DNA of 25,958 nucleotides, taken from positions 1 through 25,958 of IMG/VR virus record IMGVR_UViG_3300020394_000844; one strand, written 5' to 3'. This DNA comes from a virus. Both the position numbers and the translations under genes were made by a program. Under the pieces are notes generated by a model that worked only from the letters and a program-made list of their open reading frames with translations, was not told the DNA's origin and searched no databases. Positions 1 to 24,128 of this stretch are shown here, one piece after another. The stretch's first letter is position 1, and the number at the start of each line of letters is the position of its first letter.

Positions 1-3000
1 ATACATATCAAAGTGGAATTTCAGTTTGTGAGTCTTGCTTACATCAGAGGTACACAAGAAACTTGTTGTTTCTGGATCTGGTCCGCTGTTATGATACAAG
101 TAATAGTCCACGCACTCATATGGTGGAACAGGAGTTAGTGATGTATCTTTAATTGTTGCTGAAACAGAGTTTGGTAATCCTGCACTAGCACCGTTGCTGT
201 CTGCACCTGCCAGTGTTATAGTCATTGCTTCATTGCCTTCTGTAGTTACATCAGCAATAGCGGCTATGAATTTTTTATCAGATACAAATACATTTCCGCC
301 TTGGTCAGACATTGTGAATGTCATTTGTAAATTACTGTTTAGGTCACTACCTGCTGTAAAGTCGCTTCTTGTAATACCTGAGCCACTCACAGTTGCAACA
401 ACAGTTGCACCATCTGTTAAGTGTTCACCAGTAACTTGTAATTCTACAGTACCACCATTTTCATTTAGTGTATTTTTACTTATAGTAATATTGTTATATG
501 TTGGCACTGGATCTAAACTTGTATCGTTTATTGTTAATGTAGCCTTTCTTTTTCCAGTTGGGTTATTGGCATCATCAAATTCTGCTAATGTAAAGATTAA
601 TGTTTCTGCACCTTCTGTAGTTGCATCAGCAGTAAAGTTTATAGTTTTGGTGGCTTTTTGATTATTAATTGTCATTACAAAACTGCTTGTTGTTCCTAAA
701 TCACTGTCTGCCAAACTTGCACTACCACTTACGTTTACTGTGACTTTTGTTCCGTCCTCCACATGTTGGTCTGTTCGAACTGTGTAAACTGTAGAAGCAC
801 CTTCATTAACTGATGATGAACTAAACTGAGCACTAGTGTATCCACCATATGGTTTCGTACATTCTGCTACCCCTCTGTGTTCTTCTATATAGATACCATT
901 TGAAGCCGCATACTCACAGCCTGAATCATTGCCTGCATTGTGTAAATGTGTTTGACATTGATACTTTATGTGTTGTATTCCTTCTGGATTTCTGCCATTT
1001 TCATCTAATACACATTCTCTGGAAATTTCTAAAAAGTCGTGTTCGTGTCGTATTAATGTTGTACAATCTGCGTCAGCATGTTCTATTTTTAAATACGGAT
1101 CTTTTCTATTTGCACTTGTTCCCATAGAGAACGAAGATCCTGCTCCACCACCTGGGTATGTTTGATTAGGACCAAAGCCTGGAGTATAATCTTTGTTGAA
1201 TAAGGCAAATTTTGCTTTAAGTTGTGGGTCTGGTTTTTTGGAACCTGTATCTGTTAGTCCTGTTAATCCATAATCTTTGTATGTACCATCTAATTGTCCG
1301 GTCATTCCGTTTGATGATATTCTGGTTCCTGTTGTTGCCCAAATTGTGCCATTGTCACCATGTATAGTGCCGTCACTCATCATTGTGTATTCTACATCGC
1401 CTTGTGTCCATTTGTGACCTGATGGAATACTCTCCCATTCTCCTGTTTCATAGTTGTAAACCATTTCAGAGGAACCATATGATTGGTCACCTGGACCATA
1501 TTCTATGCCACTTCCTGTATTTCTAGGTCCTCCTACTGAGTAACCACCTGCCGCATCATATTGAGTACCTTGTGCCTCTACATAGTATTGTGCTTGTGGT
1601 TTTACAATTTCTTGCTGATGAGGTAAAATATATTGTGCTTGGAAATCCATTTGAGCCAATAATGCCTGAGCCGCAATTTGTTGTGGTGTAAGTGTAGGCT
1701 TTGGTGGTTCTTCAACTACCTTTTGTGGAGGACACACAATAATAGGAGGTTCAACAATTTGTTCTTGAGCCTGTCTAGCGGCTTCCAAATCTGCTCTCTG
1801 CTGATCCATTCCTTGTTGCATCTGTATCGCCGCATTATGGTCTCTTATAGCCTGATCCATTTGCATTTTTGCTAAGTCCGGACCATGATGTGCCATGTTA
1901 GTTGTGCCGTCAAATGGATTGTAAATCTGTGTACCTTTAAATAACGGAAATGCATCAAAACCTGGATATGACGTAGAACCTGTATCCATAATGTTATAAT
2001 TCATATTCAAACCAACATCAATGTATGGTATATCTATACTGAATGAACCTTTGCTTGATATCATACCTGCTTTAGTGTGCATTTGGTCAGCAATATCATT
2101 CAAGTACTGCTCTACACTATGGAAAGGGAAAGCATTAGTAACAACATTTGCATTATTAAGTTGTATATTACCTAAGTGATTAGCAACAAAGAATGGAGTC
2201 CAATCTACATTTCCTGTAACACCTGGTGCTTCTGTACCATATATTTCATAATCAAATCTTGATAGGTATGTATATCCACCTGTAGTATATGGATGTGCAA
2301 ATGCAGGAAAGTCAACGACCACTGTGTTTGCTGTTGGTATATCAACAACCTTCATTGTGTCGTTATAGTAATCTGGGTTCATCATATATACTTGAACATT
2401 ACTACCCAATAGTTTGTCTGATCCATCTATAGCAAATGAGTGATCCTCTCTTGTTGTAATCACGGTGTTCGCTGACATGAATGTTGCGTCTTGGAATGTT
2501 GTACGATAAATTTTTATATCATCGCCTTCTGTTATTGTTACATTATTGTCTACTGTGAAAACTGTATTACCAATTATATTTGCAATTTTTGTGTTTGTTG
2601 GTATTCCTGTACCTTCTACTTGCATTCCAGGAGCGATTGTGTTCGTGTCTTGGTCAACTGTTATTGTAACATTGCTACTTACATTTGCAGATACTCTGTA
2701 TGTTTGTTTAGGCTCTTCAAACTTTGTTTGCATAGTTGTGAAAGTATTTGCACTTGCATTCGATGTTACTCTTAATGTTCTTGTAAATGAATCATAAATT
2801 CCACCAGCATTAATTTTTACTTTCTCACCTACAGGGAAACTTGACAAGTCTGCATCAACTGAAAATTCTGTTCCTTCATTTATTGTGTAAGAAAGATTTG
2901 CTTCAGTTAAATCACCACCTGTGTAAGTTCCTGGTTCAATGTCAAACACAATAACTTCTTTTGTTACTTCAGGTCCATCTAATTGTGGTATTTCATATTG

Positions 3001-6000
3001 TGCCCTTGTAAAGTGTACAGTAGAATTCATGTCTAATGTAACAGGCTCTGCTAACACTACATTTGCAACTTTACCATCACCATCATGTCTGAATTTTAAT
3101 GCTTCATCGCTTCTAATTTCTATGCCATTTGCTAAAACAATTTTAAATGTACTAAAGTCATCGTTTACGATTGTTGTACCTTCTGGTGAACCTGATGGTG
3201 GAGTTAGTATGTTAGTTTTTGATTGTATGTTTTCTGACAATGTAATGTTTGATCCTGAAATACTTGCAACTGTGATGTTTGAAGAAGGATCTATAACACC
3301 TGAAACTAATACTTTATCTCCTACACTAATACCATCTGTGTTTGAAATTGTGATAACATTTGCTGTTGCATTAGCATCTCTAATAATCCTAACAGGCTCA
3401 CTACCAACATTGCTTAGGTCAAATGCTACTTGTTTTACTTCTACTGGATCTATAGAGTCCTCTGTCCACATGTACATACCTGGTGTAACAGGTGTCAATA
3501 TATTATTTTCTATTGCAGTAGAATCTACTACTGGAACAAGTGTATTATTAGATACAGCACTTTCAACTGTTTTAATTATAGGTGCAGTAACATTTGCAAA
3601 TACTCCTGTGGCAGATGTTAATTGGTCAACTGTGGTAACTTCTCTTCTTACATTATCTACAATAAATGAGTTACCATTTAATTCTGTTCCAGATGTATCT
3701 ATGAACTTAACACTAAGTCCAGGCTGTAAATGTTCTCCTAATGGAAAACTTCCTCCCTTAGTTGACATTTCATTTGGTACTGCTGTAATTTTTATTTTTG
3801 TATTTGCATGTGAAAGTGTAGCACTATCAGTGATAACATTCAATGCTGTATTAGTTCCAAAACGTGCAGATTCTAAAAAGAATGTGTTGTCAGTTCTGCT
3901 ATCTTTGATTGTAAATTCTGTGCCTGCAGAGCCACCTAAATTATTTACGTTGAATACAACATTATCACCTTCTCTAAATTCGTGCCCTTTAGCAACAACT
4001 TGTACTGCATAATCTACATTGGCATTTGCTTCTCTGTTTTTACCAAAGTTTATAAATGATAATGTAGATTTAGGAATTATAGATGTCATTCCATTCAATA
4101 CTGTTGCATTTGCATATAATGAAACTTTACCTTCAGGTTTTATTCTAGCAACTTGGAAAACATTTGCATTTAGGTTTGAACCTCCTGAGTCTGCAAACTT
4201 TAAGTAGTCTCCAAGTTGTACACCTTCTATTTCTCCGCTACCAATATCAAATGTTAATCTATTATTGAATACAATTTGTGTGTTTGGATCTGCTTCTACA
4301 CTTCTTGCTATAGAAATATTTGAAGTTGCTGTAATAACATTTGCTCTTGCAAATTGTGTTGCATTTTGTATAGCAACTGGTGTTGCACTTATAATATTAC
4401 CACTTAGTTGTGGTACAATACTTTTAATACTTTTTACGTCAGGTACTGTATGAGTAATGTTACCCATTTCAACAAATGATTCTGCAACCTTTTCCTCACT
4501 TACGAATCTTGTAACTGGGTGGTCAACTTCTAATTGGTCTGTAACATAAACTGGATTACCTTCTACTGTTTGTAATTCTTTGTGATAAGGATCTAGTATA
4601 TATTTTCCTTTTAGTGCTAATACATAATCATACCATTTTGTATGGTCGTAATCTGCACTAGTATTTGATAATTCGTTACCATCTAAAATCACATTGGACA
4701 AACTATTATCTGTCCATAGGAATGTTGTGCCTTTACCCTCATCGTATTCTATATAAGAAACATTTGAACTAGTGTTAGACAATCTGTAAACATCAAACTC
4801 TTCATGTTCACCTTTAGCAAAGTGAACTACGTTGCCTTCTTTTGGTAGTTGTGTTGCACTATCTAGTTGTGTAACATCAAATAAATTTTCAAAATCGTAA
4901 ATGTCAAATGCTTGATATTGAACATTATACCTGGACACATAACCTGCATTAGGCAATGTGTTGTATTTAGAATCTACTATACCCAAATAACTAACACTTG
5001 ACGTTGTGGGCCATAGTCCTTTTTCTGCCATGTCTGTTGGTCTTACTGGTAACCTTTCTGCATCGTCAACGTCAATTAATAATGTGGCGTCACCTTTAGC
5101 ATCTGGATAAATTTCAAATGTTCTCATTTGTTCCAACTTAGCCGCTAAGGCATCGTTGGCTTGTACTTTGATGTTCATTGAACTTCCAGGCAAGTCACCT
5201 TGATAAGTGTCTTCTAAGTCTATTGTGCCTCTTTCTATAATTTCAATTTTTGAATTAGGCTGTATAGGTGCGTTGGGTAAAGCACCAACATCTAAAAAGT
5301 TAATTGTAGATGTATTTGCTGAAGCATTACTTGTTATAGTAAACAATGCTTCTTCGTTTGTCTCTGGTAATTTTACTCCATTTATTTCAACATCAATGTG
5401 AGGGTAACTACCGTTTATAATTGTTAAGTTGTCTGCCGCAATAGCATCTGTTGTTGATTCGCCATCTGATACATCTATTGGAGTAAATGTGTATGACTGT
5501 GATACATTTCCTGATAATAAAGAATTAACTGGTATAGTTGTTCTACTACCTGCATCAAATACCCAATCAGTGCCTCCTGTTGTAGCATTTCCATCTACAG
5601 TAACAATCACATCGTTTTGTGCTGTACTGTTTGCAGTTTCAAAACTGTAACGTTGTCTAGGTTGATAACGTTTGCTTTCTATGTTTAAAACATTTGCTAA
5701 TGTATTACCAGCACCTGATTCTGCAAGTGTGAAATCGTCACCTTTAATTGTGAGATAGAAACTTTCAACATTTCCTGCTATTGTTCTAACAGATGATGCA
5801 ACAATATTTGCATTTACACCTGCTGTAGTATTAATTGCTGTCACAACATCTTCAGTTGTGGACACATTACTTAAATCAATTTCAGTATTTGTATTTGCAC
5901 TGAAGTGGTCTGTAATTAAAATATTACTTGCACTTGCTAATGCACTAACATTTACATTTGAAGTAGATACTGCATATGGTTTTAAGAACTGTGTTGTAAT

Positions 6001-9000
6001 ATTCGCTGTTAATAACTGAGCGGCAATAACTGTCACTGACGGATTAATTGTGTAACCATATCCTGGTTCAGTAACTGTTACATCTGAAATTCTACCATCA
6101 GCACCAATGTTCACAGTTGCCTGTGCTGTAGTACCTCCGCCATATTCAAAACTTCCTGGAATCTCCGCAGGTGGTGGTTCAATTTCTAAGAAAGGTCTTT
6201 GATAGAATTTAGTTGTTCTATCTAAAACTTCAACTTCTTTAACTTTACTTACTGTGTCTTCTGGATATGCAATTTGTATTAATTGTCTTTCATTTGTAAT
6301 TTCTGAATCAGTAATCTTCATGTCAATTGTTTGGAAATTATCTACATCACCAAAATCACCTGACTTAAGAGCCCATTCATCATATACATTAACACTACCT
6401 GGTACTAAAACTTTTTCACTGTTCAACAATACTTCTAAACTGTTCTTAGTACCTTTACTTCTTATCATACCAACATAAAAATCATATTGGTCATCTTGCG
6501 TTAATTCAAATTCTCTTAAATATTTTCTTTCATTATAACCATACTGTCTTCTACTTGCTTCATAAACTTGTTTTTCTACAGGCACATGTCCAATTTCATT
6601 GTATTTGCCCATATCGCCTGCAAGTGTATCAAAGTTTGGCTTCAAGCCATCTGTTGTAATAACATAACCTTCGGCTGTTAATGTTCCGTTCCAATTCTTT
6701 GTTCTTTTACCTTTAATTTTTAATCTTCTTTGTCTTTGGTTTAGAACATCATTGTAAATTGTGTCGCCAAATATTGTTTTATTAGAAACTGTCATTGCAT
6801 GTTCAATTTCATTTGTGTACAATATTAAGCCATAAATTTGTTTGCCTTCAGGAGGTCTTATTTCTAAATTCTGTCCGTCTCTTATAATCTCGCATTCTGT
6901 GGCTTTAATATTTTTGCCTTCTTCATCAAGTATGCTGTATTGACTTTGGTCAACATCTATAATTTTGCTTACTCTTCCCATTTTAGATGAGAACTTAATA
7001 CCACCAGCCGCTGGACTTAAATTAATTGTGTTACCTGGACTCCAATTACCAATACTCCAGAACAACATTTGTCTACCACTGTACAACCAGTCATTGACAT
7101 CATTTATTTCTGAATTAAATTCACCAAAATCATATCCCATACTTGATTGTTTTCTTCCTAAACTTATTAGGAAGTCAAATAATTCGTTCACTGTATCATA
7201 AACTGTGCCGTATTCAACTTTTAAAGTTTTGCCTGTACCATCTAAATACAATGTTGCTTCTGCGGCATTAACCATAGGCAATGAAGACAGTCTTTGCCAT
7301 GTAGTTGTATCTGTTACACTTACACCTTTACCTGCAAATTTTAATGCTTGGAAAAAATTAAATCCTGATTTTACTATTGTGCCTTGTTGATAATTTGCTG
7401 TATTATCAAAGTTGGCATAGTCAGCCGGTTCACCACCAACACTTACTTCTGTTAGTCTGCCATTTACTTTATTACTTTCTTCAATTTCAAAAAATCTTTT
7501 TACACTATTATAACCTTCAACTTTATATTTTTTATCTTCAGTTAAAGTAATTAATACACCTGTGAAATCGTTTGTTGTGCTATAAGGTCCAACATGTACA
7601 TCTACTTGAATATCTTCTTGTGGAAGAATTAAACTTGAACTATTACCTGTTGAACTATAACTGTCACTGAATACAGTCATTGTGTCTTTATCTACATAAC
7701 CACCAAACTTGTGTCCAAGTTTACTGTTTACACTTCTAAACGGTCTTACAAATTCACCAGTAGTGTTAAGTCCTTGAAATCTTAAGAAACAATCTATAAA
7801 TTGTGTATAACCAACAGTATATGTGGTTACATCATTGCCATTTACTTCGCCATGTATTTTAACATTTTTGCTTTTTAATCTTCTGCCAGTATCTTTATCA
7901 AGTAAATGGTTGGTGTTTGCTGAACTTCGAACAATTTTTCTAGGATCAGCAAACACACTGGCAAACTTACCTGGCTTGGCAAGTAAAAGGGATTGAACTA
8001 CAGCAAAAGGATATCCTTCTGATATTTTCCATGCATTTTCTACAGGAGCACCGTCGCTGTATTTCCAATCTTTATTCGTTAGTGAACTGTTAGCACTATA
8101 TGTAGTTGTTAATGTGCTTGTTAAATTATATGTTGCAGTACCAGTATCTAAAGTAGTTGTGCCTGTTGCATTTGTAGTTACGTCTACTGGTGTATCAGCA
8201 AAACTAGGTCCTACAGTATATGGATATGCTGGTGTTTGGTCAGCATTTATTGTTGCTACATAGTAATAAGTTCCATTTGGGAATTCAGGTGTTGGACCAT
8301 AACGACCATTGTATTGGTCAAGTCCATGTGAGTTTGAAGAATATTCATAATCTTCTATAAATTCACCTGTGGGCAAACCACCCGGGCCAGTTGCTATTGT
8401 GTCTCTGTTTACAGTTTTTAAACTATAACCACTTTCTATTCTTACTATATTGGTTAAGACATTTCCTCTATCCTCATATCCATAAGGACCATAAATTGGA
8501 AATCCATCCAATGCCCAACCTATGATTGGTGAATGTTCTGTTGATGAATATCCTGTTGCTCCTGTAACATTTGCACTAGGTTGCACATAACCGTAAATAT
8601 TATTACTGTCAGGAGCACCACCTTTACTATCTCTGCTTACTTCGTTCCTGTATAGTGCATTGTAGTGCCAACTAGTGCTATCACTGTGAGTGATACCTGT
8701 GTTAGCATTTGTTATCAATGCTCCGTTTACTGCAATACCTTTTACACTACTACCTGTGGTAGTTGCATTTGCATAAGAAGAATTTGCAGGATTGTATTGT
8801 GCAGGTTTTAAAGATACCTTGTACTTTAATTCTTTATCTTCTATAAAATTGGTATTATCTGTTGTTGGAAAAGTACCTGTGGTATGATTGATAATGTTAT
8901 TAGTTGTAATATTAATATTAGAACCAACTTCACTAACAGATAAACCATCAGTTATTATAAATGTGTTTGCACTTGCTGATGCAGTACCACTAGTTGTTTC

Positions 9001-12000
9001 TACCCAAGTAATTGTTTTTGTAGTTGATGATGTGCTAATAATATTTGCTGGTGCAAGTAAATTACCACTTGCATCTACTGGTATTTCAAATTTTAATCCT
9101 ATTCTTCTGTAAGGATTATTTTCTTTATATCTATCATTTGTAACATTTTCTCTGTTACCTTGTCTAATAATACCTTCTTCTAAATCTTTCCACATTGCTT
9201 TGTTGGTTGGGTAACTGTAATCTGTACCGTATTGTGTTTCCCACCAACTTGGCTTTCTAACAAACCCAAGCATTTCCCAAGGATGTGTATGTGGTCTCTC
9301 CGTGTCATAGCACGATTCATATATACCTCTCCAATGAGCAGGCTTTTCTGTTCCGTAATTGTAATTCCATGTAAATAGATTATCTGCTTGATAAAATTCA
9401 TTCTTTACAAAATCTACTTCATTTCTTGTTATATAGAAATTAAAATTATTTCTTAACAATCCATAAAACTCATCTCTACTTCTGCCTGTATTTCTAAATC
9501 TACCAGGTCTTATGTCTGTAACGTTTAAGTCAGGTAAACTGTCATTATTTCTAAATTGTTGTAATGTGCTGTTATACACACGTTTTTCAAATTCTAATAA
9601 AATATAATCATGTACGTCGCCCACTGCAACACTTTTACTTCCGTCATGTCCTCTTACCATTTGTATTGGTTCTACAAATGATGTGTCATTTATTATTTCT
9701 GGATAATAAAGTGGATACAATCCCAATACACTAGGTGTAGGCGGAGTCTGTGTACTTTCTCTGTTAGTATCGTACAGTCTAACTTTTATTGTGTTACCCA
9801 ATGTTAAAACATAACTTGGATCGAATGTAATTGTTACTACACCATTTGCACTTGATATACTATAGTCAACATCGACACACAATAATTTTTCTATGTTGTT
9901 TGCATCATGGTCATAAACAAAAATTGTATTTTCTACTTTATCTAAATCTAAATAGTTTGTTAATGTATATTCTTTTTTCAATACATTGTTAATAACAATT
10001 TTTTCTTCTATATACTGGTCTCCAAATGCCGCCATAAAGGTATCATTGAAAACATTTTTTCCTTGATTAAATGCAATAACATTTTCTAGCACAAGTTCCA
10101 ACATCTCTCCATAAGACATATTGGAATAATCATTGTTATCTACAAATTTTACAATTTCTTTTTTTAATCTGTTTTTATATTTTACATATTCTTCTGCACA
10201 AAAATCTATACTGTCTTTGATATTAAATTTATCGTTGCTAAACAAGAATGCAGATAATTGTAAATCATCATCTGATTGAATCAATGTGTCGGCATATTTT
10301 AAATCTTTTGAAATATTATCAAAGTTATTACCACCTAAAGGATCGCCTGTAATGTCTTCTTGATTTTCTACAAAGTTTTTAAAATGCTCTAAATATTCAG
10401 GCTGAGATACAGTTAGTAAATCAACATTGTCTAAATTACTGTGCCAACTTTTTGCAACATTATATCTTCCATTTGTTTTTGAACTTTCTACAAAACCTGT
10501 AACAGTCTCAGTAAATATATCTATAATATCTAATTTACTAAATGTAAACGAAGCAAATTTAATTGCAACTTGACTTGCATCATAACTAAAGTCAGTTTTG
10601 CGTACACCATTTACATAAACTCTAATACTTTTTTCTACTAGTCCTAATTCGTTACTATCACTATTTTTCGGAACTGCTGATATGTGAAAGAGAGTTTTTT
10701 CATTTGATACGTCTGCATCTTTTATAACATATCTGTCTTCAACTTTTTGCTTTAAATCTTCCTTTAATGGACGCCATGCTGTATCAAATGTAATGTCTCC
10801 ATTTTGTTCTATTTTTTTGTAATACAAATATCCTTGTATTTGAGATTTTGCAGTTCCACCAAAAGGAACGTATGAATAAAAATAATCATCAATATAGTTT
10901 GTAAAAGATATTTCACTAAAATTATTAAAGTTTTTATATTCTAAAGGAAATCCTAACACAGGATCTTCAGTTGTATTTGTTGTTGCTTTTGTATAACCAA
11001 AGATTTCATTACCTACAAATGTACTGCTAGGATATGTACTATCATTATCTAATGCTACTTTATTTTTATCATAAAGGTTAAATTTAATTGGTGTGTTTAT
11101 TTTAGATTTTTGTTGTCCTTTTTTCCAATCTATACCTGACCAGTAATATTCTATACCTGTGTATCTTGCACCAAATTTTACTGTTATAACATCACCAACT
11201 GCCGCAGTATAAGGAACAAAGTTTGAATCACCGTCAACTGCTCCAGCAGGATTATTATCAGCAGGTTTTCTAGTTAATGTTACGTTTTCACTTCCGTCTG
11301 TTCCAATCAAGTAAACATGTTGTGCAACATTTGTTTCTTCTCCTGGGAACATTATAAAGTTACCTACTTGTAAAGTAACATCATCTATTGTGGAACCGTT
11401 AGGTCTGCCTAGTACTTCTGATTTGTTCGAACCTTCAGCACTTATTTCTACAGCAAATTTTCCTAAAGTACCAAAGTTATATAATTCTATATCTCTGTCG
11501 AATTCAATAATAGGTCTAATAGCACGTTTGTCTTTTGCAGGTAATTGGTCACCAACATCTAAAAAGTTTTGTTTGTGATGCCAAAAGTTAATTCTACTCC
11601 ATACATTATTGTCTTTAGATGCACGTTGCATAACAATGTAGTCTGTATTTTCTTGAGTATTATCACTATCATATGGCATAGTATCAAATGCTCCTACACC
11701 ACCTGCTACATATCTTAAGAAAGAACCTACTGGTGCAACATAACCGTCCCAAAGTTTCTGTCTTGTTGTAGCATCTACTTGGTCTTCTGTATAATCAGGT
11801 GTGGGCCATGTGCCGTCTGTTGAAATATAATTTGTAACACCTACTAGACCACCACTTAAAAATTTAGTATCATTTATTAGTGTATCGTTATTAGGATCTA
11901 TAATTGTTTGGTCATACGGAATATAGTCTTCAGTACTGAAAACTGTAGCAAAGTTTTGTTCTTTATTATGCAGTATAATTCCTTCACCGACACCTTCTAC

Positions 12001-12591
12001 AATAAATCTTTTATCATCTTTGAATCTAGTTGGAATTACATAGTTTCCACTAAAAGTAACAACCATGCCATTTTTTAATACTGTACCTTGAGGTGTTGTG
12101 TAAGACTTTTTACCTAAAATATCTTTTTCAATATTGATAGGATTTGTACTTGTGCCTGAAACAATAACTGGTGTAGGTCCTGCAGGACTCCAAAAGTATT
12201 CTTGATAATTTATAAATTTGTCAACGTTAATTGGAGGCATAAATGAATATGCCTGTGTATCAAACAATGTGTTTTGATTTTTTGTATCTACACCATAACT
12301 TTTTAATACATTGATGTAATCCTCATAAAACATCAAGTTGGTGTTTAAACCTGTTTCTTGGTCAATACTGTTTACTACGGGTTCTAAACTAAACTTATCT
12401 CTGTCAGCAGTAGGTTGAAGGATATATGTATCTGTTGCTGTAAATAGGTCTTCGTCTTTTTTACCTATGTACGCAGATACACTTTCAATATTTGCTTTAC
12501 TGAATAGTTGCTCGACTGTAGTATCAAAAAAGTTTTTGATTACAGGAGTCTGATGGGTAACCGGTAATTTTGTATATTTTTTTTCAGCCAT
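1..12591 (-). CDS. giant virion structural protein, YHYH-domain baseplate/adhesion type (3' end outside window)
   Basis: I read every triplet of this frame from ATG 12591 to base 1 and found no stop, so at least 4,197 codons are present and the gene runs off the left edge. It starts 5 nt after the gp6 stop, where T4 has gp7, and belongs to the gp25-gp6 operon. Visible parts in order: an N-terminal segment with MPPINVDKFINYQEYFW (about residues 118-135); MVRGHDGSKSVAVGDVHDYI (978-997); RPHTHPWEMLGFVRKPSWW (1099-1117); a YHYH domain (about 1298-1464); a long series of beta-rich, Asn/Thr/Ala-rich stretches, including EPGYGYTINPSVTV (about 2177-2190); a helix plus proline linker (3578-3677); a Cys/His cluster; and two Ig/Calx-beta-like modules (3924-4157). 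T4 gp7 is about 1,030 residues, so a simple gp7 orthologue is unlikely. A baseplate or host-adhesion protein of marine T4-like phages (sometimes annotated VrlC-like, from memory) is the best reading. Coding is certain; function is inferred. Confidence 0.93.
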   Translation of the reverse strand, partial: MAEKKYTKLPVTHQTPVIKNFFDTTVEQLFSKANIESVSAYIGKKDEDLFTATDTYILQPTADRDKFSLEPVVNSIDQETGLNTNLMFYEDYINVLKSYGVDTKNQNTLFDTQAYSFMPPINVDKFINYQEYFWSPAGPTPVIVSGTSTNPINIEKDILGKKSYTTPQGTVLKNGMVVTFSGNYVIPTRFKDDKRFIVEGVGEGIILHNKEQNFATVFSTEDYIPYDQTIIDPNNDTLINDTKFLSGGLVGVTNYISTDGTWPTPDYTEDQVDATTRQKLWDGYVAPVGSFLRYVAGGVGAFDTMPYDSDNTQENTDYIVMQRASKDNNVWSRINFWHHKQNFLDVGDQLPAKDKRAIRPIIEFDRDIELYNFGTLGKFAVEISAEGSNKSEVLGRPNGSTIDDVTLQVGNFIMFPGEETNVAQHVYLIGTDGSENVTLTRKPADNNPAGAVDGDSNFVPYTAAVGDVITVKFGARYTGIEYYWSGIDWKKGQQKSKINTPIKFNLYDKNKVALDNDSTYPSSTFVGNEIFGYTKATTNTTEDPVLGFPLEYKNFNNFSEISFTNYIDDYFYSYVPFGGTAKSQIQGYLYYKKIEQNGDITFDTAWRPLKEDLKQKVEDRYVIKDADVSNEKTLFHISAVPKNSDSNELGLVEKSIRVYVNGVRKTDFSYDASQVAIKFASFTFSKLDIIDIFTETVTGFVESSKTNGRYNVAKSWHSNLDNVDLLTVSQPEYLEHFKNFVENQEDITGDPLGGNNFDNISKDLKYADTLIQSDDDLQLSAFLFSNDKFNIKDSIDFCAEEYVKYKNRLKKEIVKFVDNNDYSNMSYGEMLELVLENVIAFNQGKNVFNDTFMAAFGDQYIEEKIVINNVLKKEYTLTNYLDLDKVENTIFVYDHDANNIEKLLCVDVDYSISSANGVVTITFDPSYVLTLGNTIKVRLYDTNRESTQTPPTPSVLGLYPLYYPEIINDTSFVEPIQMVRGHDGSKSVAVGDVHDYILLEFEKRVYNSTLQQFRNNDSLPDLNVTDIRPGRFRNTGRSRDEFYGLLRNNFNFYITRNEVDFVKNEFYQADNLFTWNYNYGTEKPAHWRGIYESCYDTERPHTHPWEMLGFVRKPSWWETQYGTDYSYPTNKAMWKDLEEGIIRQGNRENVTNDRYKENNPYRRIGLKFEIPVDASGNLLAPANIISTSSTTKTITWVETTSGTASASANTFIITDGLSVSEVGSNINITTNNIINHTTGTFPTTDNTNFIEDKELKYKVSLKPAQYNPANSSYANATTTGSSVKGIAVNGALITNANTGITHSDSTSWHYNALYRNEVSRDSKGGAPDSNNIYGYVQPSANVTGATGYSSTEHSPIIGWALDGFPIYGPYGYEDRGNVLTNIVRIESGYSLKTVNRDTIATGPGGLPTGEFIEDYEYSSNSHGLDQYNGRYGPTPEFPNGTYYYVATINADQTPAYPYTVGPSFADTPVDVTTNATGTTTLDTGTATYNLTSTLTTTYSANSSLTNKDWKYSDGAPVENAWKISEGYPFAVVQSLLLAKPGKFASVFADPRKIVRSSANTNHLLDKDTGRRLKSKNVKIHGEVNGNDVTTYTVGYTQFIDCFLRFQGLNTTGEFVRPFRSVNSKLGHKFGGYVDKDTMTVFSDSYSSTGNSSSLILPQEDIQVDVHVGPYSTTNDFTGVLITLTEDKKYKVEGYNSVKRFFEIEESNKVNGRLTEVSVGGEPADYANFDNTANYQQGTIVKSGFNFFQALKFAGKGVSVTDTTTWQRLSSLPMVNAAEATLYLDGTGKTLKVEYGTVYDTVNELFDFLISLGRKQSSMGYDFGEFNSEINDVNDWLYSGRQMLFWSIGNWSPGNTINLSPAAGGIKFSSKMGRVSKIIDVDQSQYSILDEEGKNIKATECEIIRDGQNLEIRPPEGKQIYGLILYTNEIEHAMTVSNKTIFGDTIYNDVLNQRQRRLKIKGKRTKNWNGTLTAEGYVITTDGLKPNFDTLAGDMGKYNEIGHVPVEKQVYEASRRQYGYNERKYLREFELTQDDQYDFYVGMIRSKGTKNSLEVLLNSEKVLVPGSVNVYDEWALKSGDFGDVDNFQTIDMKITDSEITNERQLIQIAYPEDTVSKVKEVEVLDRTTKFYQRPFLEIEPPPAEIPGSFEYGGGTTAQATVNIGADGRISDVTVTEPGYGYTINPSVTVIAAQLLTANITTQFLKPYAVSTSNVNVSALASASNILITDHFSANTNTEIDLSNVSTTEDVVTAINTTAGVNANIVASSVRTIAGNVESFYLTIKGDDFTLAESGAGNTLANVLNIESKRYQPRQRYSFETANSTAQNDVIVTVDGNATTGGTDWVFDAGSRTTIPVNSLLSGNVSQSYTFTPIDVSDGESTTDAIAADNLTIINGSYPHIDVEINGVKLPETNEEALFTITSNASANTSTINFLDVGALPNAPIQPNSKIEIIERGTIDLEDTYQGDLPGSSMNIKVQANDALAAKLEQMRTFEIYPDAKGDATLLIDVDDAERLPVRPTDMAEKGLWPTTSSVSYLGIVDSKYNTLPNAGYVSRYNVQYQAFDIYDFENLFDVTQLDSATQLPKEGNVVHFAKGEHEEFDVYRLSNTSSNVSYIEYDEGKGTTFLWTDNSLSNVILDGNELSNTSADYDHTKWYDYVLALKGKYILDPYHKELQTVEGNPVYVTDQLEVDHPVTRFVSEEKVAESFVEMGNITHTVPDVKSIKSIVPQLSGNIISATPVAIQNATQFARANVITATSNISIARSVEADPNTQIVFNNRLTFDIGSGEIEGVQLGDYLKFADSGGSNLNANVFQVARIKPEGKVSLYANATVLNGMTSIIPKSTLSFINFGKNREANANVDYAVQVVAKGHEFREGDNVVFNVNNLGGSAGTEFTIKDSRTDNTFFLESARFGTNTALNVITDSATLSHANTKIKITAVPNEMSTKGGSFPLGEHLQPGLSVKFIDTSGTELNGNSFIVDNVRREVTTVDQLTSATGVFANVTAPIIKTVESAVSNNTLVPVVDSTAIENNILTPVTPGMYMWTEDSIDPVEVKQVAFDLSNVGSEPVRIIRDANATANVITISNTDGISVGDKVLVSGVIDPSSNITVASISGSNITLSENIQSKTNILTPPSGSPEGTTIVNDDFSTFKIVLANGIEIRSDEALKFRHDGDGKVANVVLAEPVTLDMNSTVHFTRAQYEIPQLDGPEVTKEVIVFDIEPGTYTGGDLTEANLSYTINEGTEFSVDADLSSFPVGEKVKINAGGIYDSFTRTLRVTSNASANTFTTMQTKFEEPKQTYRVSANVSSNVTITVDQDTNTIAPGMQVEGTGIPTNTKIANIIGNTVFTVDNNVTITEGDDIKIYRTTFQDATFMSANTVITTREDHSFAIDGSDKLLGSNVQVYMMNPDYYNDTMKVVDIPTANTVVVDFPAFAHPYTTGGYTYLSRFDYEIYGTEAPGVTGNVDWTPFFVANHLGNIQLNNANVVTNAFPFHSVEQYLNDIADQMHTKAGMISSKGSFSIDIPYIDVGLNMNYNIMDTGSTSYPGFDAFPLFKGTQIYNPFDGTTNMAHHGPDLAKMQMDQAIRDHNAAIQMQQGMDQQRADLEAARQAQEQIVEPPIIVCPPQKVVEEPPKPTLTPQQIAAQALLAQMDFQAQYILPHQQEIVKPQAQYYVEAQGTQYDAAGGYSVGGPRNTGSGIEYGPGDQSYGSSEMVYNYETGEWESIPSGHKWTQGDVEYTMMSDGTIHGDNGTIWATTGTRISSNGMTGQLDGTYKDYGLTGLTDTGSKKPDPQLKAKFALFNKDYTPGFGPNQTYPGGGAGSSFSMGTSANRKDPYLKIEHADADCTTLIRHEHDFLEISRECVLDENGRNPEGIQHIKYQCQTHLHNAGNDSGCEYAASNGIYIEEHRGVAECTKPYGGYTSAQFSSSSVNEGASTVYTVRTDQHVEDGTKVTVNVSGSASLADSDLGTTSSFVMTINNQKATKTINFTADATTEGAETLIFTLAEFDDANNPTGKRKATLTINDTSLDPVPTYNNITISKNTLNENGGTVELQVTGEHLTDGATVVATVSGSGITRSDFTAGSDLNSNLQMTFTMSDQGGNVFVSDKKFIAAIADVTTEGNEAMTITLAGADSNGASAGLPNSVSATIKDTSLTPVPPYECVDYYLYHNSGPDPETTSFLCTSDVSKTHKLKFHFDMY
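121..495 (-). repeat. Ig/Calx-beta-like module 2 of the giant protein
   Basis: Residues about 4033-4157. It repeats module 1 position by position: NTLNENGGTVELQVTG, GATVVATVSGSG, SDFTAG, then ADVTTEGNEAMTITLAGAD, and ending ATIKDTSLTPVPPY. The two copies share the TTEGxE and DTSLxPVPxY signatures but differ at most other residues and at the DNA level, so the duplication is old or selected for diversity. After it the frame continues with a short Cys-containing stretch (ECVDYY, FLCTSD) to the window edge. Confidence 0.7.
496..822 (-). repeat. Ig/Calx-beta-like module 1 of the giant protein
   Basis: Residues about 3924-4032. Pattern in order: SSSSVNEG at the start, GTKVTVNVSGS, a SD followed by an M-T motif, ADATTEGAETLIFTLAEFD, and TLTINDTSLDPVPTY at the end. 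The NEG...TEGxE...TL...INDTS pattern is that of Calx-beta-type immunoglobulin-like folds, common in adhesins and phage decoration modules. It is the tandem partner of the module at 121-495. Confidence 0.7.
823..1100 (-). other. Cys/His-rich segment of the giant protein
   Basis: Residues about 3831-3923. Within about 80 residues there are five cysteines (contexts DADC, REC, YQC, SGC, AEC) and several histidines (HADADC, RHEHD, IQHI, QTHLH, EEH). Cysteine is rare in the rest of the protein. The pairing of Cys with HxH-type patterns suggests a metal-binding or disulfide-stabilised knob between the linker and the Ig-like modules. I do not recognise a named family. Confidence 0.55.
1561..1860 (-). 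other. Gln/Ala-rich helix and Pro-rich linker in the giant protein
   Basis: Residues about 3578-3677. The first part (MDQAIRDHNAAIQMQQGMDQ, then RADLEAARQAQEQ) is charged, Ala/Gln-rich and predicted helical or coiled-coil. It runs into a Pro/Glu-rich segment (PPQKVVEEPPKPTLTPQQ) and a second Gln/Ala stretch. This contrasts with the Thr/Asn-rich beta-type sequence on both sides. It could be a stalk or a flexible hinge that separates the body from the distal C-terminal modules. Confidence 0.6.
8200..8700 (-). other. YHYH domain within the giant structural protein
   Basis: Residues about 1298-1464 of the giant protein contain the run of motifs I associate with the YHYH family: WHYNAL near the start, then SPIIGWALDGFPIYGPYGYE, then LDQYNGRYGPTPEFPNGTYY followed by YVATI. 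The second half of the name-giving motif reads YYYV here rather than YHYV. The family occurs in secreted and surface proteins and in some marine phage structural proteins; its biochemical role is not settled. It is the clearest recognisable domain of the protein. Confidence 0.75.
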
Positions 12592-12596
12592 TAGTC

Positions 12597-15500
12597 TTAA
12601 TATCCACTTCCACCTCCACCGGAGCCGCCACTACCGCCGGAACCACTTCCGCCTGAGTAACTAGATCCGCCGGATCCACTTGTTGCACTTGTACCTGAAA
12701 TAGTATTATTTGTTACATCACTTGTTGAAGTTGTAGATGCTTGTGCAGTACCTTCTTCTTCTGTGTAGTTTCCATGATAGAATGTAATACCGTTTGGCAT
12801 GTAGAATGTTTTTCCAAAGAAATCATGTTGATGACTTGTTCCGTTACCTGCAAAGTTAGCCGCTTCTTCTGTCGGATATAATGGATAGTATCCATTAATT
12901 GCAAAAGGTCCAACTTCTGACGTTGGATTCTTGTATGACGTAAACGAAGGTGTAGCAGAGTTTGGTTTAATATTTTCTTTTGTAATTTTATCTACAATGT
13001 CAATATCATTAACTGTTGCTGTACTTAAGAACAGTTCGTCACTATCACATTTTACCTGGAATAAATCTCCAAATACACCTGATGCTTTCTTAGGAACAAT
13101 TACTATACTTCCTATTGTGTTACCTACTTCTTGATGTATATAACTACTGAGTTCTGTGAAGTAAAAAGTATCACCGAACTCCCAATTATCAATATTGAAA
13201 TATTTGTTTACTGCTTTAATAATATTTGTTTTAATTTCGTTATCACTTAAACTTGTGCCTGGCAATCTTACAACTTTAAATCTTGCTTGTAATTCTGCTG
13301 GGGCATCATCGCCGAATAACATTTTAAATCTACCACTCTTAAATAAAAGTTGGTCACTTGCTGATTTAAATGTTTCTAAATTTTGAAATTCTGTTTCAAG
13401 TTCTAGTGTACTAGGTTCTTCTGGGAACGGTGTACCTGGAACATTAAGATATGCTTTTACTTGCTCATAGTATGTGCTAGTTAGTACAAACATTTCATGT
13501 ACATTACTAATACTAGGATCAATACGTTGGTCATTGTTTGCAATGTGAGTCCACTTAAACAAAACATTATCTACTTTATCTTCTTTTGTGTTTTGCGTAA
13601 AACTCTTACCAACTTTTGCTCTGTGTGTAGAACTCTCATAGTGGTTTACTACTTGTAAATTTGTACTACTGTAAGACATTAAATATACTTTGCCTGTGTC
13701 TACAGCATAAACTTTTTTGTTATGTAATTTTCCAGCAGTATTATCAAAACCGTTCGATGCTCCAATGATGCTTTCTGATTTTACTAAAAAGTATTCATAA
13801 TCTGCAACATTATAATATGTTCCAGTTAGTCCTTCGGCATTACCAGTCGAATCACCTGCTATTCTTGTATAGTCAGTGCTAAAGTTTACACCTGGTTCTC
13901 TTCTTAAATCTAATATTCCTGCTTTTACAGGTTTTGTATATGTATATCCATCGAAACTGTTGAAATCTTCAAATAATACAATATCTTGTGGCCCAACAAA
14001 ATCCGAAAATTGAATTGGATTATCTGGACTGTCATCATTTGTTGAATTAAACGGTGTTACTTGTACTTTTCTTGCATCAGTATGTCCGTCTGAGTATGTA
14101 AAGTTTTTAACAGCCGCCCATGTAATAGGCTTATCTAATTTGTCCTTTGACCTTATATAATTAATGTTTATAACGTCTTTACTTGATAAACCACTGCTGT
14201 CTAAAGCATAGTGTCTATTTGTATCAAAATTTGTTACAACTAATGTACCTGTTTGTCCTGAAACATTTGCGTTTGCAACATAAATGTGACCTCCGCCCAT
14301 GTTAGCAATATTACCTGCTGTATATACTGTATTGTTATGCTTATAACTGATGTTACCGTTTGCATCTAAAATGTTATGACCAAATGTACTACTGGTAAAA
14401 TCGATGTTTATGCTATCTGGTAAACTATGTATTACACCTGTATTGTTTGCAATAGTAACGTTTATATTACTTGTAGAATCTGACGTGTCAAAATTTGTGC
14501 CTAAAGTAATATTGTAATTGTTTACAAATACATTAGCCGAAGAATCTGCGTTTCGGAATAGTCCAAAGTTAGTATTAACGTCTATCTCAACTTGGTCATA
14601 TTTTATACTTCTGGTTTTTAAAGGTATATCAGAGAATGTTACACCATCACTAGTTGAATACCATTTGTCTCCAATAAAGTCTGGAGTTGTTGATGTATCT
14701 CTCCACTCAAAAGTTTCTATACTGGTACCTTTTGTATTCATTGTTGGTAGTTCTAGTGTATCGTATTTTGCTCTACCTGTAAAACTATCTACAATTCTAT
14801 TTTCATTTATGTTGTAGAATCTTACATCTTCAAAACTTTCAAAAATGTATCTTGTTCCACGTAATTCTACGTTATATCTATATGATAATGTATCTATAGA
14901 TTCATATGTAAATTTTATAATCCAACTTCTGTCTCTTTGATTACCTGATGTGTCTTTTGCATTACCTACACTAAAAGTACTCTTAGAGTCTAAATTATTA
15001 TTGTTAATAATATAAAATAAATCAGCAGTTGCATCGTAACCTAAACCAAATGTTTGTTTACGTTCGATTGCTGTTTTAAGTCTTGCTTGTTCAACTTCGT
15101 AAAATCTTGTTCTTAATGTTGTAATAATTTCATTACCTAAAAATCCGTCTTTTACATTTTCACTAAGTCTAAAAGGACCATCTGCTGTTGTGCTTGAACT
15201 TACACGTCTACCATTGTCTCTAATAGAAACAATTTTTACCCATTGATATTTTGTTATATCATTTGGATCAACAAATTTTATTAAATGCCCTGGCTGTATT
15301 AATGCTAAATTTGGATTTGCTATATTAACGTCACTAACAGTACCTACATTAGTAAATGTCTCTGTTAAATATCCTGTATCGTTTCTGTCAGTTTTTGGTA
15401 ATGTATTCCATTTTATACCATACTGATCCAGTAAAAATTTATTTGGTTGTGTAGCCTTCCATTGGTCTCTAAAGTCACTGTACACAAAATCTTGTAATTC

Positions 15501-17060
15501 TAGATTTTTAAGATACAGCGGAAGTACTTTTTCAATTTGCTCAACAGCCGTATTGTTGTTGTCTATGATAAATGATCCTGAGCCTGAAATATTTTCTTTG
15601 TACAATGCACCATCTTCTGCAATTGACGTTGTAGTTTGGAATGTACTTGTAGGATCTGTAATATCAATATATCTACTATGCCCTGCATGTGTTCTATTAG
15701 TAACTTTTAATTTTTCTATGTTTGTGCTTTTTGCTAAAGGCAACACTTGATAATCTTGTGCTGACACCATTCTGTCTTGTGCATAAAAACTTTGTGGTGC
15801 TCTTTCTTTTATACCTGCTAATGTTTCTTCTGGCAATGCATTGTTGATTGCTACTTGCAATCTAGATGTAATTGTTAAGACATAACTTTCACCTCTTTGA
15901 TTTACATAAGGCACAGTTGTTACGACATCGCCGACATCATCTGGTTGTATGCTGTATCTTTCATTTGCACTTACTCTATAAAATGCTCTGTAGTTTCCAA
16001 CTGGAACATTTGCAAAGTTTCCATCTGCAAATTGTAATTCAATACCTTCTACTCCTACGTTTTGTATTGCATACAATAAAGGAGTGTTTTTTGCTAAAGT
16101 ATTAAATTGTAAAGTTTGTCCAACTGTATTTGGAATTTTTTGCCACTTTGTCAAAACTACATTTTGGTCACTTACTTGTTGGAAATAAACGTCCGTTTCG
16201 TTTATATTTTCTGCACCAATAAGTTGTCTTCTATTTTCTACAGGATCTTCAAAATTAAATTCTGCAGAGTTAAGAGTACCTTGTTTGAACATTAAGAAAA
16301 ATCCGTTATTGGTACTTGATAATCCTAAACCATCATTTCTATGAACAATACCAAAGTTATTAGTTGGATCAGGATGTTTTTCGTAAAAGTGACTGTTGTC
16401 TTCAAAGTCTGCATTTACAACTTCGAAGTCTCTACTAATACCGTTTATATTCTTTTTAAACTTGTAAACAAATGGCTGATTGATTGCAGTATTAATTTCA
16501 TATAAATCGGTAATAATTTTATTAATTGAACCTGTTTTTACAGGTTTACTAAATCTGTTGACATTACCAAATGCACTATTCATTATTGTAATGAATTGTT
16601 CGTATGCATCTGGATTGTTAGCATCGTTCCATGTGATAGTTCTGTTTCCAATTTGTGTACTGGCACTATCTGTTAATGGTTCTGTTGTTGAAATACTTAC
16701 TATTTTAAGCAAGCCACTAGCCGCAATATTTCTTTTTGGATTGTATCCTAATTGTCTTGCTAGTTTGAATACTGAGTCTCTTCTTTCTGCAGTTTCTAAA
16801 AAATTCTCTCTAGTATTAACATCCATCCTGAATGCAATACTTTGAGCCAAATATGCTAACAATTCTATGATAGCAATGAACTCAGAACTTTCAATGTAGT
16901 CGTTAAAGTTTTCTGGAAAGTTAGTCCTAATGTATTCAATCATTGCAGTACGAATTGTTTCAAAATCGTATGCTTGAAAGTTTACTTGGCTATATGCCTG
17001 ATAGGCTACGTCCCAATCTTCTGCCGCGAATAAATTGTTCTGTCTGTTGCTCAATGCCAT
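12597..17060 (-). CDS. 6: baseplate wedge subunit gp6-like, enlarged (1,487 aa)
   Basis: T4 gp6 forms the ring of wedge dimers that holds the baseplate together. The N-terminus (about residues 30-125) has the gp6-type pattern: an acidic-helical segment, IELLAYLAQSIAFRMDVNT, then RRDSVFKLARQLGYNPKRN. Near 1280-1330 lies a Baseplate-J-like C-terminal segment (NWEFGDTFYFTELSSYIHQE). T4 gp6 is about 660 residues, so some 800 residues of Asn/Thr/Ser-rich beta-type sequence are inserted between these parts. The C-terminus adds a module with YYPLYPTEEAANFAGNG and SHQHDFFGKTFYMPNG (about 1385-1425), then a Ser/Thr linker and a Gly/Ser tail (about 1457-1487). The ATG lies 2 nt after the gp25 stop, so translation is probably coupled. 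Identity rests on the termini plus synteny with gp25. Confidence 0.85.
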   Translation of the reverse strand: MALSNRQNNLFAAEDWDVAYQAYSQVNFQAYDFETIRTAMIEYIRTNFPENFNDYIESSEFIAIIELLAYLAQSIAFRMDVNTRENFLETAERRDSVFKLARQLGYNPKRNIAASGLLKIVSISTTEPLTDSASTQIGNRTITWNDANNPDAYEQFITIMNSAFGNVNRFSKPVKTGSINKIITDLYEINTAINQPFVYKFKKNINGISRDFEVVNADFEDNSHFYEKHPDPTNNFGIVHRNDGLGLSSTNNGFFLMFKQGTLNSAEFNFEDPVENRRQLIGAENINETDVYFQQVSDQNVVLTKWQKIPNTVGQTLQFNTLAKNTPLLYAIQNVGVEGIELQFADGNFANVPVGNYRAFYRVSANERYSIQPDDVGDVVTTVPYVNQRGESYVLTITSRLQVAINNALPEETLAGIKERAPQSFYAQDRMVSAQDYQVLPLAKSTNIEKLKVTNRTHAGHSRYIDITDPTSTFQTTTSIAEDGALYKENISGSGSFIIDNNNTAVEQIEKVLPLYLKNLELQDFVYSDFRDQWKATQPNKFLLDQYGIKWNTLPKTDRNDTGYLTETFTNVGTVSDVNIANPNLALIQPGHLIKFVDPNDITKYQWVKIVSIRDNGRRVSSSTTADGPFRLSENVKDGFLGNEIITTLRTRFYEVEQARLKTAIERKQTFGLGYDATADLFYIINNNNLDSKSTFSVGNAKDTSGNQRDRSWIIKFTYESIDTLSYRYNVELRGTRYIFESFEDVRFYNINENRIVDSFTGRAKYDTLELPTMNTKGTSIETFEWRDTSTTPDFIGDKWYSTSDGVTFSDIPLKTRSIKYDQVEIDVNTNFGLFRNADSSANVFVNNYNITLGTNFDTSDSTSNINVTIANNTGVIHSLPDSINIDFTSSTFGHNILDANGNISYKHNNTVYTAGNIANMGGGHIYVANANVSGQTGTLVVTNFDTNRHYALDSSGLSSKDVININYIRSKDKLDKPITWAAVKNFTYSDGHTDARKVQVTPFNSTNDDSPDNPIQFSDFVGPQDIVLFEDFNSFDGYTYTKPVKAGILDLRREPGVNFSTDYTRIAGDSTGNAEGLTGTYYNVADYEYFLVKSESIIGASNGFDNTAGKLHNKKVYAVDTGKVYLMSYSSTNLQVVNHYESSTHRAKVGKSFTQNTKEDKVDNVLFKWTHIANNDQRIDPSISNVHEMFVLTSTYYEQVKAYLNVPGTPFPEEPSTLELETEFQNLETFKSASDQLLFKSGRFKMLFGDDAPAELQARFKVVRLPGTSLSDNEIKTNIIKAVNKYFNIDNWEFGDTFYFTELSSYIHQEVGNTIGSIVIVPKKASGVFGDLFQVKCDSDELFLSTATVNDIDIVDKITKENIKPNSATPSFTSYKNPTSEVGPFAINGYYPLYPTEEAANFAGNGTSHQHDFFGKTFYMPNGITFYHGNYTEEEGTAQASTTSTSDVTNNTISGTSATSGSGGSSYSGGSGSGGSGGSGGGGSGY
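12600..12690 (-). other. Gly/Ser-rich C-terminal tail of gp6 with a local G+C spike
   Basis: The last 30 or so codons of gp6 encode almost only Gly, Ser and a final Tyr. Because Gly codons begin with GG, this stretch is far richer in G+C than its surroundings. The same GGAGGTGG bases lie about 20 nt ahead of the giant gene's ATG. The better-placed GGAAGTGG is also within gp6, so the tail may double as the ribosome-loading region for the next gene. Confidence 0.6.
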
Positions 17061-17062
17061 GT

Positions 17063-17434
17063 TTAAATCTCTTTGCTATCTTGTGTATATTCTATAAACA
17101 AGGTATCTTCATCTAAAAAAGGCTTTAATAATAATTGTACTTGAACTCTAATTGTGTGGTCTATTACTTGCGTAAATACACTTTCAATTTCAACTCTAGG
17201 ATCTTTCAAACAGATACGTTGAACTTCTTCTCTTACTTCTTGTTCAACATAATCGTCTAAAGGATTCATTATTAAGTCATAAATTGATGTACCATAATTA
17301 GGACGCATTACACGTTCGCCTTTTCTGGTATATAACTCATTGAGTAGGTCAGTTTTTACAGCCTCACCATTTGTTAATGTGTATGGTGGTCTAATCCTGT
17401 CCTTTGTACTAAAGCCTTTGTAAATGTTTGCCAT
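17063..17434 (-). CDS. 25: baseplate wedge subunit gp25
   Basis: gp25 is the small conserved wedge protein (GPW/gp25 family) that links gp6 to the sheath-proximal part of the baseplate. The 123 residues compare with about 130 in T4. The family core is visible at residues 38-50 (KGERVMRPNYGTS), followed by the acidic segment DDYVEQEVREEVQRIC, with a beta-strand half to the C-terminus. The gene is first in the leftward operon gp25-gp6-giant gene. There is no Shine-Dalgarno sequence: a late-type GATAAATA box ends only 6 nt before the ATG, so the late transcript may be leaderless or nearly so. Confidence 0.92.
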   Translation of the reverse strand: MANIYKGFSTKDRIRPPYTLTNGEAVKTDLLNELYTRKGERVMRPNYGTSIYDLIMNPLDDYVEQEVREEVQRICLKDPRVEIESVFTQVIDHTIRVQVQLLLKPFLDEDTLFIEYTQDSKEI

Positions 17435-17517: not shown

Positions 17518-17567
17518 ACTGAGAGCATAAGAAATTATGCATGTTTTTGTCATACATAGGAAAACAA

Positions 17568-17852
17568 ATGAAAAACATTCTAGAAAAGTTTAACAACATT
17601 GTTGAACAGGCCCATAAAGCCAACAAACTTATTGCGGAAAACGGATATAAATGGACTACAGGATACGGTCCAAGATTCCGTAAAATGATGCACTACCGCA
17701 ATAAAAGAGTGCATTCCATCGGTATTTTTGACTACCACACCAAGAAATATGTACTATTTGAAATGGTCAATATGGTTGGTCAGCCCAAAAACTCCATTCC
17801 ATCAGAACTTTTAGACATGGAGAAACTTATCGTAGATGCAGAACTTACCTAA
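17568..17852 (+). CDS. hypothetical protein, 94 aa
   Basis: I do not recognise this protein. It starts with an amphipathic helix (MKNILEKFNNIVEQAHKANK) and continues with a basic, aromatic segment (GYGPRFRKMMHYRNKRVH) and a short beta-type region, and ends acidic. It has no signal peptide or membrane segment. I prefer ATG 17568 to an in-frame ATG at 17541 because TAGGAA sits at 17557-17562, 5 nt before it, while nothing of the kind precedes 17541. The basic centre could suit nucleic-acid or protein binding, but this is only a guess. It is the first gene of a short early-type operon with the hydrolase, whose start overlaps its end by 17 nt. Confidence 0.75.
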   Translation: MKNILEKFNNIVEQAHKANKLIAENGYKWTTGYGPRFRKMMHYRNKRVHSIGIFDYHTKKYVLFEMVNMVGQPKNSIPSELLDMEKLIVDAELT

Positions 17853-18468: not shown

Positions 18469-18682
18469 CGTAAACACAACATTAAATAATACACTTGAAG
18501 AAGAACTTAGAGTAATGCTAGTACAAGCAAATAATAATTTGATAGCATTACAACAAGAAAATGATTTTTTGAGAGAATCAGTAAAAGAAGAACAAGACGG
18601 CAAATACAGAGCCTACGTTAGAGTTTCTGATTTAGAAAGAGAATTAAGATTATTAAAAGAAAAATTTAACTGTAAGGTCTAA
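18461..18682 (+). CDS. small coiled-coil protein, 73 aa (GTG start)
   Basis: Starts at GTG 18461, with GGAG at 18451-18454 and a 6-nt spacer, and overlaps the end of the hydrolase gene by 8 nt. The sequence is strongly helical and charged: TLEEELRVMLVQANNNLIAL, then QQENDFLRESVKEEQ and VSDLERELRLLKEKF, with leucines at heptad-like spacing, so a dimeric or trimeric coiled coil is likely. No named family is recognised. Its last 17 nt overlap the 3' end of gp5 on the other strand, tail to tail. The close coupling suggests it works with the hydrolase or the 94-aa protein, perhaps as a scaffold or adaptor. Confidence 0.75.
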   Translation: MSNVNTTLNNTLEEELRVMLVQANNNLIALQQENDFLRESVKEEQDGKYRAYVRVSDLERELRLLKEKFNCKV

Positions 18683-23832: not shown

Positions 23833-24128
23833 TATCTAACTCTATCTATTGCTGTAGTACTTGGCAAAAATATTTCTTTTCCAGAAGTAAAGTCTTCTAA
23901 AGGATCTATAAGTTTGTCTGGATTTCTCAAAGCAAACACCCACCATAATTTTACTGTTCCAAATAAATCATTTGCTAAAAGGTCCGGTCTTTTGTCATAT
24001 CTACTTTCAATAGTATAGAGTTCGTCGGAAGCCGACTGAGGAATTTTTGGCAATGTGTTCACATCTAAATAAAATTTAGTGACCTGTGTATTTTTTAAAA
24101 AACTATTATTGCTGTGAAATGTAGCCAT
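23832..24128 (-). CDS. 53: baseplate wedge subunit gp53-like, 98 aa
   Basis: Residues about 38-90 carry the LysM-like pattern seen in small baseplate wedge proteins: YTIESRYDKRPDLLANDLFG, LWWVFALRNP, and ending GKEIFLP. T4 gp53 has about 196 residues and the same YG-x-LYWVLL-x-N motif, so this is a short form. In T4 gp53 joins wedge assembly after gp6 and closes the baseplate ring. Start and stop codons overlap with both neighbours in TAATG junctions, showing translational coupling in the late operon. Confidence 0.75.
   Translation of the reverse strand: MATFHSNNSFLKNTQVTKFYLDVNTLPKIPQSASDELYTIESRYDKRPDLLANDLFGTVKLWWVFALRNPDKLIDPLEDFTSGKEIFLPSTTAIDRVR

Follow-up and report, generated by a model that had tools for sequence, protein, structure and literature searches.

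Our analyses concern a window (i.e., the whole stretch of DNA analyzed, a complete IMG/VR record of 25,958 bases) in which a very long minus-strand gene lies directly downstream of a gp6 homologue, as an earlier note on this DNA had stated, with homologues of gp25, gp5, and gp53 nearby. The genes of the window, and the blocks into which the product of the giant gene can be divided, are as follows:

1..12591, minus strand: giant gene, N-terminal two thirds (4,197 codons); runs off the contig
9040..12591, minus strand: N core, residues 1-1184; common to RaK2, PA5oct-type phages, SCTP-2, Atu_ph07, and Vibrio 2.275.O
8080..9039, minus strand: YHYH-domain insertion, residues 1185-1504 (PF14240 match at 1268-1451)
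6007..8079, minus strand: middle core, residues 1505-2195
4732..6006, minus strand: segment 2196-2620, start of the long internal insert (identity profile)
1..4731, minus strand: hypervariable internal arm, first part, residues 2621-4197 (identity profile, dN/dS)
12597..17060, minus strand: gp6-type baseplate wedge protein, 1,487 aa (phrog_10646, E 0)
17063..17434, minus strand: gp25-type wedge protein (PF04965, E 6.7e-10)
18666..21404, minus strand: gp5-type baseplate hub/tail lysozyme (phrog_13211, E 5.3e-42)
21406..23832, minus strand: virion structural protein (phrog_11190)
23832..24128, minus strand: gp53-type wedge protein (phrog_7145, E 4.2e-24; PF11246, E 2.9e-4)

The gp6-type protein is recognized in HHalign comparison with T4 and cyanophage gp6 (probability 98.5). 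Its 1,487 residues are over twice those of T4 gp6 (660), and its counterpart in SCTP-2 has 3,096; the wedge proteins are enlarged as a group in the lineage of the giant protein. Two plus-strand features are also present in the window, viz. an islet (17541-18468) that separates the gp25 gene from the gp5 gene and is made up of two overlapping ORFs, the second of which resembles alpha/beta hydrolases (PF07819, E 8.3e-6; PF00561, E 1.1e-5), and a 357-codon ORF antisense to the arm (2939-4012), which is without a convincing family match and probably occurs by chance.

The frame of the giant gene (minus strand, 12591..1) is opened by an ATG at position 12591, five bases beyond the stop codon of the gene before it, and it continues stop-free through 4,197 codons to the end of the contig, where it is still open. 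The probability of a stop-free run of this length is about 10^-149 under the base composition of the window, and among the stop-free runs in 100 shuffled versions of the window, the longest had 165 codons. An independent contig (L009; IMGVR_UViG_3300030451_006175) matches the window across 17,800 bases, ungapped and with 99.89% identity, to approximately codon 3,615, and the protein of a second relative (L010) aligns through the final codon of the window with 85% protein identity over all 4,197 residues. Additionally, dN/dS between the window and four relatives is 0.06-0.39 in each 300-codon block. The giant frame is genuine and unbroken coding DNA, and the earlier description of one uninterrupted frame of at least 4,197 codons with its end beyond the window is borne out by the ORF itself, the shuffles, the relatives, and the dN/dS values. 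An assembly or frame artefact that fuses unrelated genes could be suspected in a single metagenomic contig that is cut at its end, but against it stand the ungapped, 99.89% identical contig and the whole, uninterrupted genes of ten distinct relatives and of a 339,794-base contig, and we give this explanation practically no chance of being correct. The assembly join or frameshift within 1-12591 that the earlier note had allowed for is ruled out by the L009 match, the closed relatives, and dN/dS.

The relatives examined are viral contigs, which were extended to recover the end of the gene. A closed gene is present in ten distinct marine contigs (and in one near-identical duplicate), with lengths of 5,697; 6,225-6,269; 6,289; 6,327; 6,342; and 6,361 codons, and the 339,794-base contig contains a closed gene of 6,539 codons. 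As the closed relatives have 5,697-6,539 codons, the frame in the window represents the first approximately two thirds of the gene for a protein of ~6,300 residues. The nearest complete relative (L010) has 6,327 residues and a mass of about 680 kDa, and multiplication of the average residue mass by the lengths of the relatives yields about 610-680 kDa for the whole protein. Hence, the earlier estimate of a mass well above 450 kDa is correct for the whole protein. The accompanying suggestion that it belongs among the largest virion proteins is a fair one, but the protein is not unique in this regard, as gp7 of P-SSM2 has 5,195 residues, a protein of S-MS29 has 6,114, and the PHROGs collection includes a virion profile (phrog_701) of 6,136 positions. 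A jumbo phage is the most likely source.

The giant protein has a match (E 3.8e-250) to phrog_10938, a 3,324-position profile annotated as virion structural protein, and the identity of its cores to the RaK2-type proteins is 25-35%. Orthologues that follow the gp6 position have been identified in RaK2 (ORF070, 3,326 aa), phi30-2, a relative of PA5oct (BDR25914, 3,857 aa), Salicola SCTP-2 (ORF 140, 3,807 aa), Atu_ph07 (AUZ94962, 4,449 aa), Vibrio 2.275.O (424, 3,771 aa), CBB (CBB_236, 3,340 aa), and phAPEC6 (gp245, 3,323 aa). In each of these phages, as in the window, the orthologue is immediately preceded by a large gene at the position of gp6, for which the annotation in RaK2, CBB, and phAPEC6 is baseplate wedge. 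In all five of the named relatives compared, alignment recovers the N, middle, and C cores in the same order, and the complete marine relatives carry all three of these blocks, the first two of which are covered by the window. The C-core model also matches two UniProt/BFVD entries named 'YHYH domain-containing protein', A0A6J5T0D1 and A0A6J5L0K2 (fragment 3; E 1e-24 and 3e-22), and relatives of the giant protein are therefore already in databases.

Two further groups of records deserve mention. The annotations of the orthologues in K64-1, EJP2, and vB_Pa-PAC2 (records NC_027399.1, OQ411014.1, and PP408249.1) look wrong or broken: 16 hypothetical proteins are listed beneath the orthologue match in K64-1, whereas the orthologues of EJP2 and vB_Pa-PAC2 are labelled D-alanyl-D-alanine carboxypeptidase and chitin-binding protein, respectively. 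Three bacterial-binned contigs (L086, L087, and L088), including ones from a Gammaproteobacteria and an Endomicrobia bin, contain sequences distantly related to the N core, with 26-29% identity; these are probably phage contigs that were mis-binned or are carried by those hosts.

The orthologues of two phages have been detected in virions by mass spectrometry, viz. CBB_236 in CBB (21 peptides, 7.72% coverage; PMC5259590) and gp245, of 381.88 kDa, in phAPEC6 (17 peptides, 7.6%; PMC7247149). This evidence, which comes from relatives without the long arm, supports at the level of the family the earlier view that the giant protein is a virion protein. The same reports bear on the idea that the frame is translated whole and then cut as a polyprotein into a wedge part, an arm, and C-terminal virion proteins. 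Such processing would suit the extreme length of the frame, and gp7 of cyanophage B23 does occur as two adjacent ORFs; however, phAPEC6 gp245 and CBB_236 were each reported as a single entry of ~3,300 residues, and we consider a polyprotein quite improbable.

The division of the giant protein into blocks was made from pairwise and profile comparisons. In the complete proteins the blocks occur in the order N core, YHYH insertion, middle core, long variable segment, C core, and C-terminal tail; the C core (~residues 5,060-5,970) falls beyond the window, and all relatives have it. The segment 2196-2620 is well kept among the marine relatives and mostly missing from the named RaK2-like proteins. 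The distance from the middle core to the C core is 175-440 residues in phi30-2, RaK2, SCTP-2, and Vibrio 2.275.O, about 1,480 residues in Atu_ph07, and about 3,000 residues in the marine proteins. Between marine clades, the cores show ~31-80% identity and residues 2,800-4,600 only 10-40%, with many gaps, and dN/dS is about 0.2-0.39 in the arm vs. 0.06-0.29 ahead of it. The arm is a fast-evolving, length-variable, internal segment between conserved cores. The window ends within the arm, and the distal modules of the arm are therefore internal to the protein; the variable part, which had been taken for a distal tip, instead comprises ~3,000 residues between core blocks with the C core beyond them.

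By eye, the arm contains a Q/M-rich and P-rich stretch (~3566-3622), a Cys/His-rich patch (~3835-3915), and two Calx-beta-like beta domains (~3918-4145), which are leads rather than tested assignments. Searches of the window's arm against Pfam, PHROG, NCBIfam, and PDB gave no match, including to Calx-beta or adhesin domains, and the family searches identified no recognizable adhesin, lectin, or receptor-binding domain in it. In the arms of four relatives, likewise, nothing matched in PHROG or, above the cut-off, in Pfam, residues 2,799-4,197 matched no named phage record, and self-BLAST of four full-length proteins detected no internal repeats. The modular layout proposed earlier is thus retained for the conserved N-terminal part, the YHYH domain, and the variable part, but not for the adhesin modules, to which Pfam, PHROG, NCBIfam, and PDB lend no support. 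In one contig (L037:675-2087; G005, a relative of L016), a second insertion of ~450 residues follows the C core and matches phrog_4527, a profile of short tail fibres (E 3.2e-10), which hints at a movement of fibre modules into the giant gene.

The YHYH domain of the giant protein is recognized by PF14240 (E 4.9e-32), and this insertion, which the named RaK2-like proteins lack, is also present in cyanophage gp7 at a similar position. The YHYH motif reads YYYV in the window, with YYYV or YAYF replacements here and in the aligned cyanophage gp7, and [YF]H[YF]H was found in none of the proteins compared in the alignment, where the canonical motif was placed by our own reading. The domain has been predicted to be a tail-associated metal-dependent hydrolase in jumbo-phage genomics (PMC7824862). 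Because the motif is replaced, catalysis by these copies is unlikely.

The gene order gp25-gp6-giant in the window matches the order gp25-gp6-gp7 of T4, and it is this order that makes a gp7 role for the giant protein plausible. T4 gp7 profiles gave no match to the giant family in HHalign, hmmsearch, or a whole-genome profile search, and BLAST also returned nothing, though the same HHalign and hmmsearch procedures detect gp7 in the cyanophage giants (E about 1e-6) as a positive control. Comparison of the T4 gp7 and cyanophage gp7 N-terminal profiles with the core blocks revealed only short Gly-rich repeats in common, and the gp7 motif FYxSKGxxxSxxxLFxxLYxE is absent from the window protein. 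The gp7-type function that the earlier note had envisaged thus finds no support in homology in these results, among them the HHalign comparison of the cores. A profile search of five large records, made without a positive control, found no other gp7, a search for gp8 in five records, also without a positive control, was empty, and no hidden gp7 core was found within the enlarged gp6 neighbour.

Giant proteins that follow gp6 are also known from cyanophages. The annotation is gp7 or baseplate wedge initiator for those of P-SSM2 (gp7, 5,195 aa), ACG-2014f (4,225 aa), and S-CAM9 (3,884 aa), and baseplate wedge subunit for that of S-MS29 (6,114 aa). The cyanophage giants carry the T4 gp7 motif FYxSKGxxxSxxxLFxxLYGE (profile E about 1e-6), which is weaker in S-CAM9. 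In Synechococcus phage B23 (L057:5383-17162), gp7 occupies a pair of neighbouring ORFs (2,845 and 1,081 residues), each with the annotation T4-like gp7; either a giant gp7 is naturally divided here, or the break arose in sequencing or annotation. In earlier work, gp7 was listed among the non-cyanophage core genes (Sullivan 2010), and T4 gp7 was reported to be absent from pelagimyophages and apparently replaced by VrlC (pelagimyophage paper).

These observations bear on the possibility that the giant protein is a true but highly diverged gp7, which has grown by insertions as in the cyanophages and initiates wedge assembly. Its exact position after gp6, the similar placement of the YHYH domain in the giant gp7 of cyanophages, and the lack of a second gp7 in the five large records (in the search without a positive control) are in keeping with this possibility; however, no core block matches the T4 gp7 or cyanophage gp7 N-terminal profiles, T4 gp7 is matched by the gp7 of cyanophages (E about 1e-6), and only the YHYH domain and short Gly-rich repeats are held in common. 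We regard a diverged gp7 as a real, though unlikely, possibility. AlphaFold models of the N and C cores are of low confidence (pLDDT 50.7 and 56.6, respectively). With these models, Foldseek returned nothing significant from PDB; the top hits for the N core, short domains of podophage tail/fibre complexes (E 0.0095 or worse), serve as a lead only. Sequence searches of PDB that used the arm and the two cores as queries found no match.

The explanation that we favor, and hold to be moderately probable, is that the giant protein comes from a marine jumbo myophage, is associated with the baseplate wedge in the virion, is an orthologue of the RaK2, PA5oct, CBB, and phAPEC6 proteins, and bears an internal host-contacting arm. 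It takes up the continuous frame under selection, the family membership, the order and conservation of the blocks, the variable arm, and the presence of two orthologues in virions, and to these it would add a location at the wedge, to which gene order is the only link, the projection of the arm, and contact with the host. The cores (residues 1-1184, 1505-2195, and ~5060-5970) would be folded back against the gp6-type wedge, and these three blocks would build the outer baseplate where T4 has gp7 and other outer wedge proteins. The ~3,000-residue stretch between the second and third core blocks would project as an arm, whose fast-evolving modules would touch the host surface; host contact by the arm is probable. 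Of the fusion of gp7-type wedge functions with a host-recognition arm that was suggested earlier, no link to T4 gp7 was found in sequence or fold, whereas the variable arm is present and its contact with the host is what we infer. A more speculative proposal, which we consider rather doubtful, is that a wedge protein unrelated to gp7 took over the gp7 role in this lineage of jumbo phages, and that in marine members it carries a looped-out host-recognition fibre of ~3,000 residues, which is anchored in the baseplate at both ends and stands in place of a separate fibre gene.

The phrog_10938 family, giants of similar size (phrog_701, S-MS29), and the YHYH proteins of uncultured phages were already known, and our literature searches found no paper that describes the structure of the giant protein or names it. 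New in the present work are the completed length, the separation of RaK2-type from gp7-type giants, and the internal placing of the variable arm. A gene that was formerly partial is now completed to ~6,300 residues (6,539 in one relative), a size comparable to that of the largest annotated virion proteins of phages encountered in this work. The two kinds of giants that follow gp6, viz. the gp7-type of cyanophages and the RaK2-type, can now be told apart, where gene order alone would merge them. The internal fast-evolving segment is a testable candidate for a host-recognition site in uncultured ocean jumbo phages, and should the arm prove to be a receptor-binding element with both of its ends anchored, this would represent an unusual tail-fibre construction.

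Among known systems, T4 gp7 (baseplate wedge, 1,032 aa) resembles the giant protein in its position directly after gp6, but it is six times shorter, and no similarity between the two was detected in sequence or, with the low-confidence core models, in fold. The giant gp7 of the Kyanoviridae share with it the position after gp6, the giant size, short Gly-rich repeats, and a YHYH domain near residues 1,200-1,550 in which the YHYH motif is lost; they differ in possessing the T4 gp7 motif and in being followed by gp8 (in P-SSM2 and ACG-2014f), and their N-terminal regions show no similarity to the giant RaK2-type family. The predicted YHYH hydrolase differs from the window protein in that the histidines of its motif are not kept in the latter. 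A0A6J5T0D1 and A0A6J5L0K2, uncharacterized proteins of uncultured Caudovirales phages, are alike in the C core (fragment 3). The named RaK2-type proteins share the same gene neighbourhood, where annotated, and the same order of the N, middle, and C cores, and they are distinguished from the marine proteins by their length (3,323-4,449 vs. ~6,300 residues), by being without the YHYH insertion, and by a spacing between the middle and C cores of 175-1,480 residues, which in the marine proteins is ~3,000.
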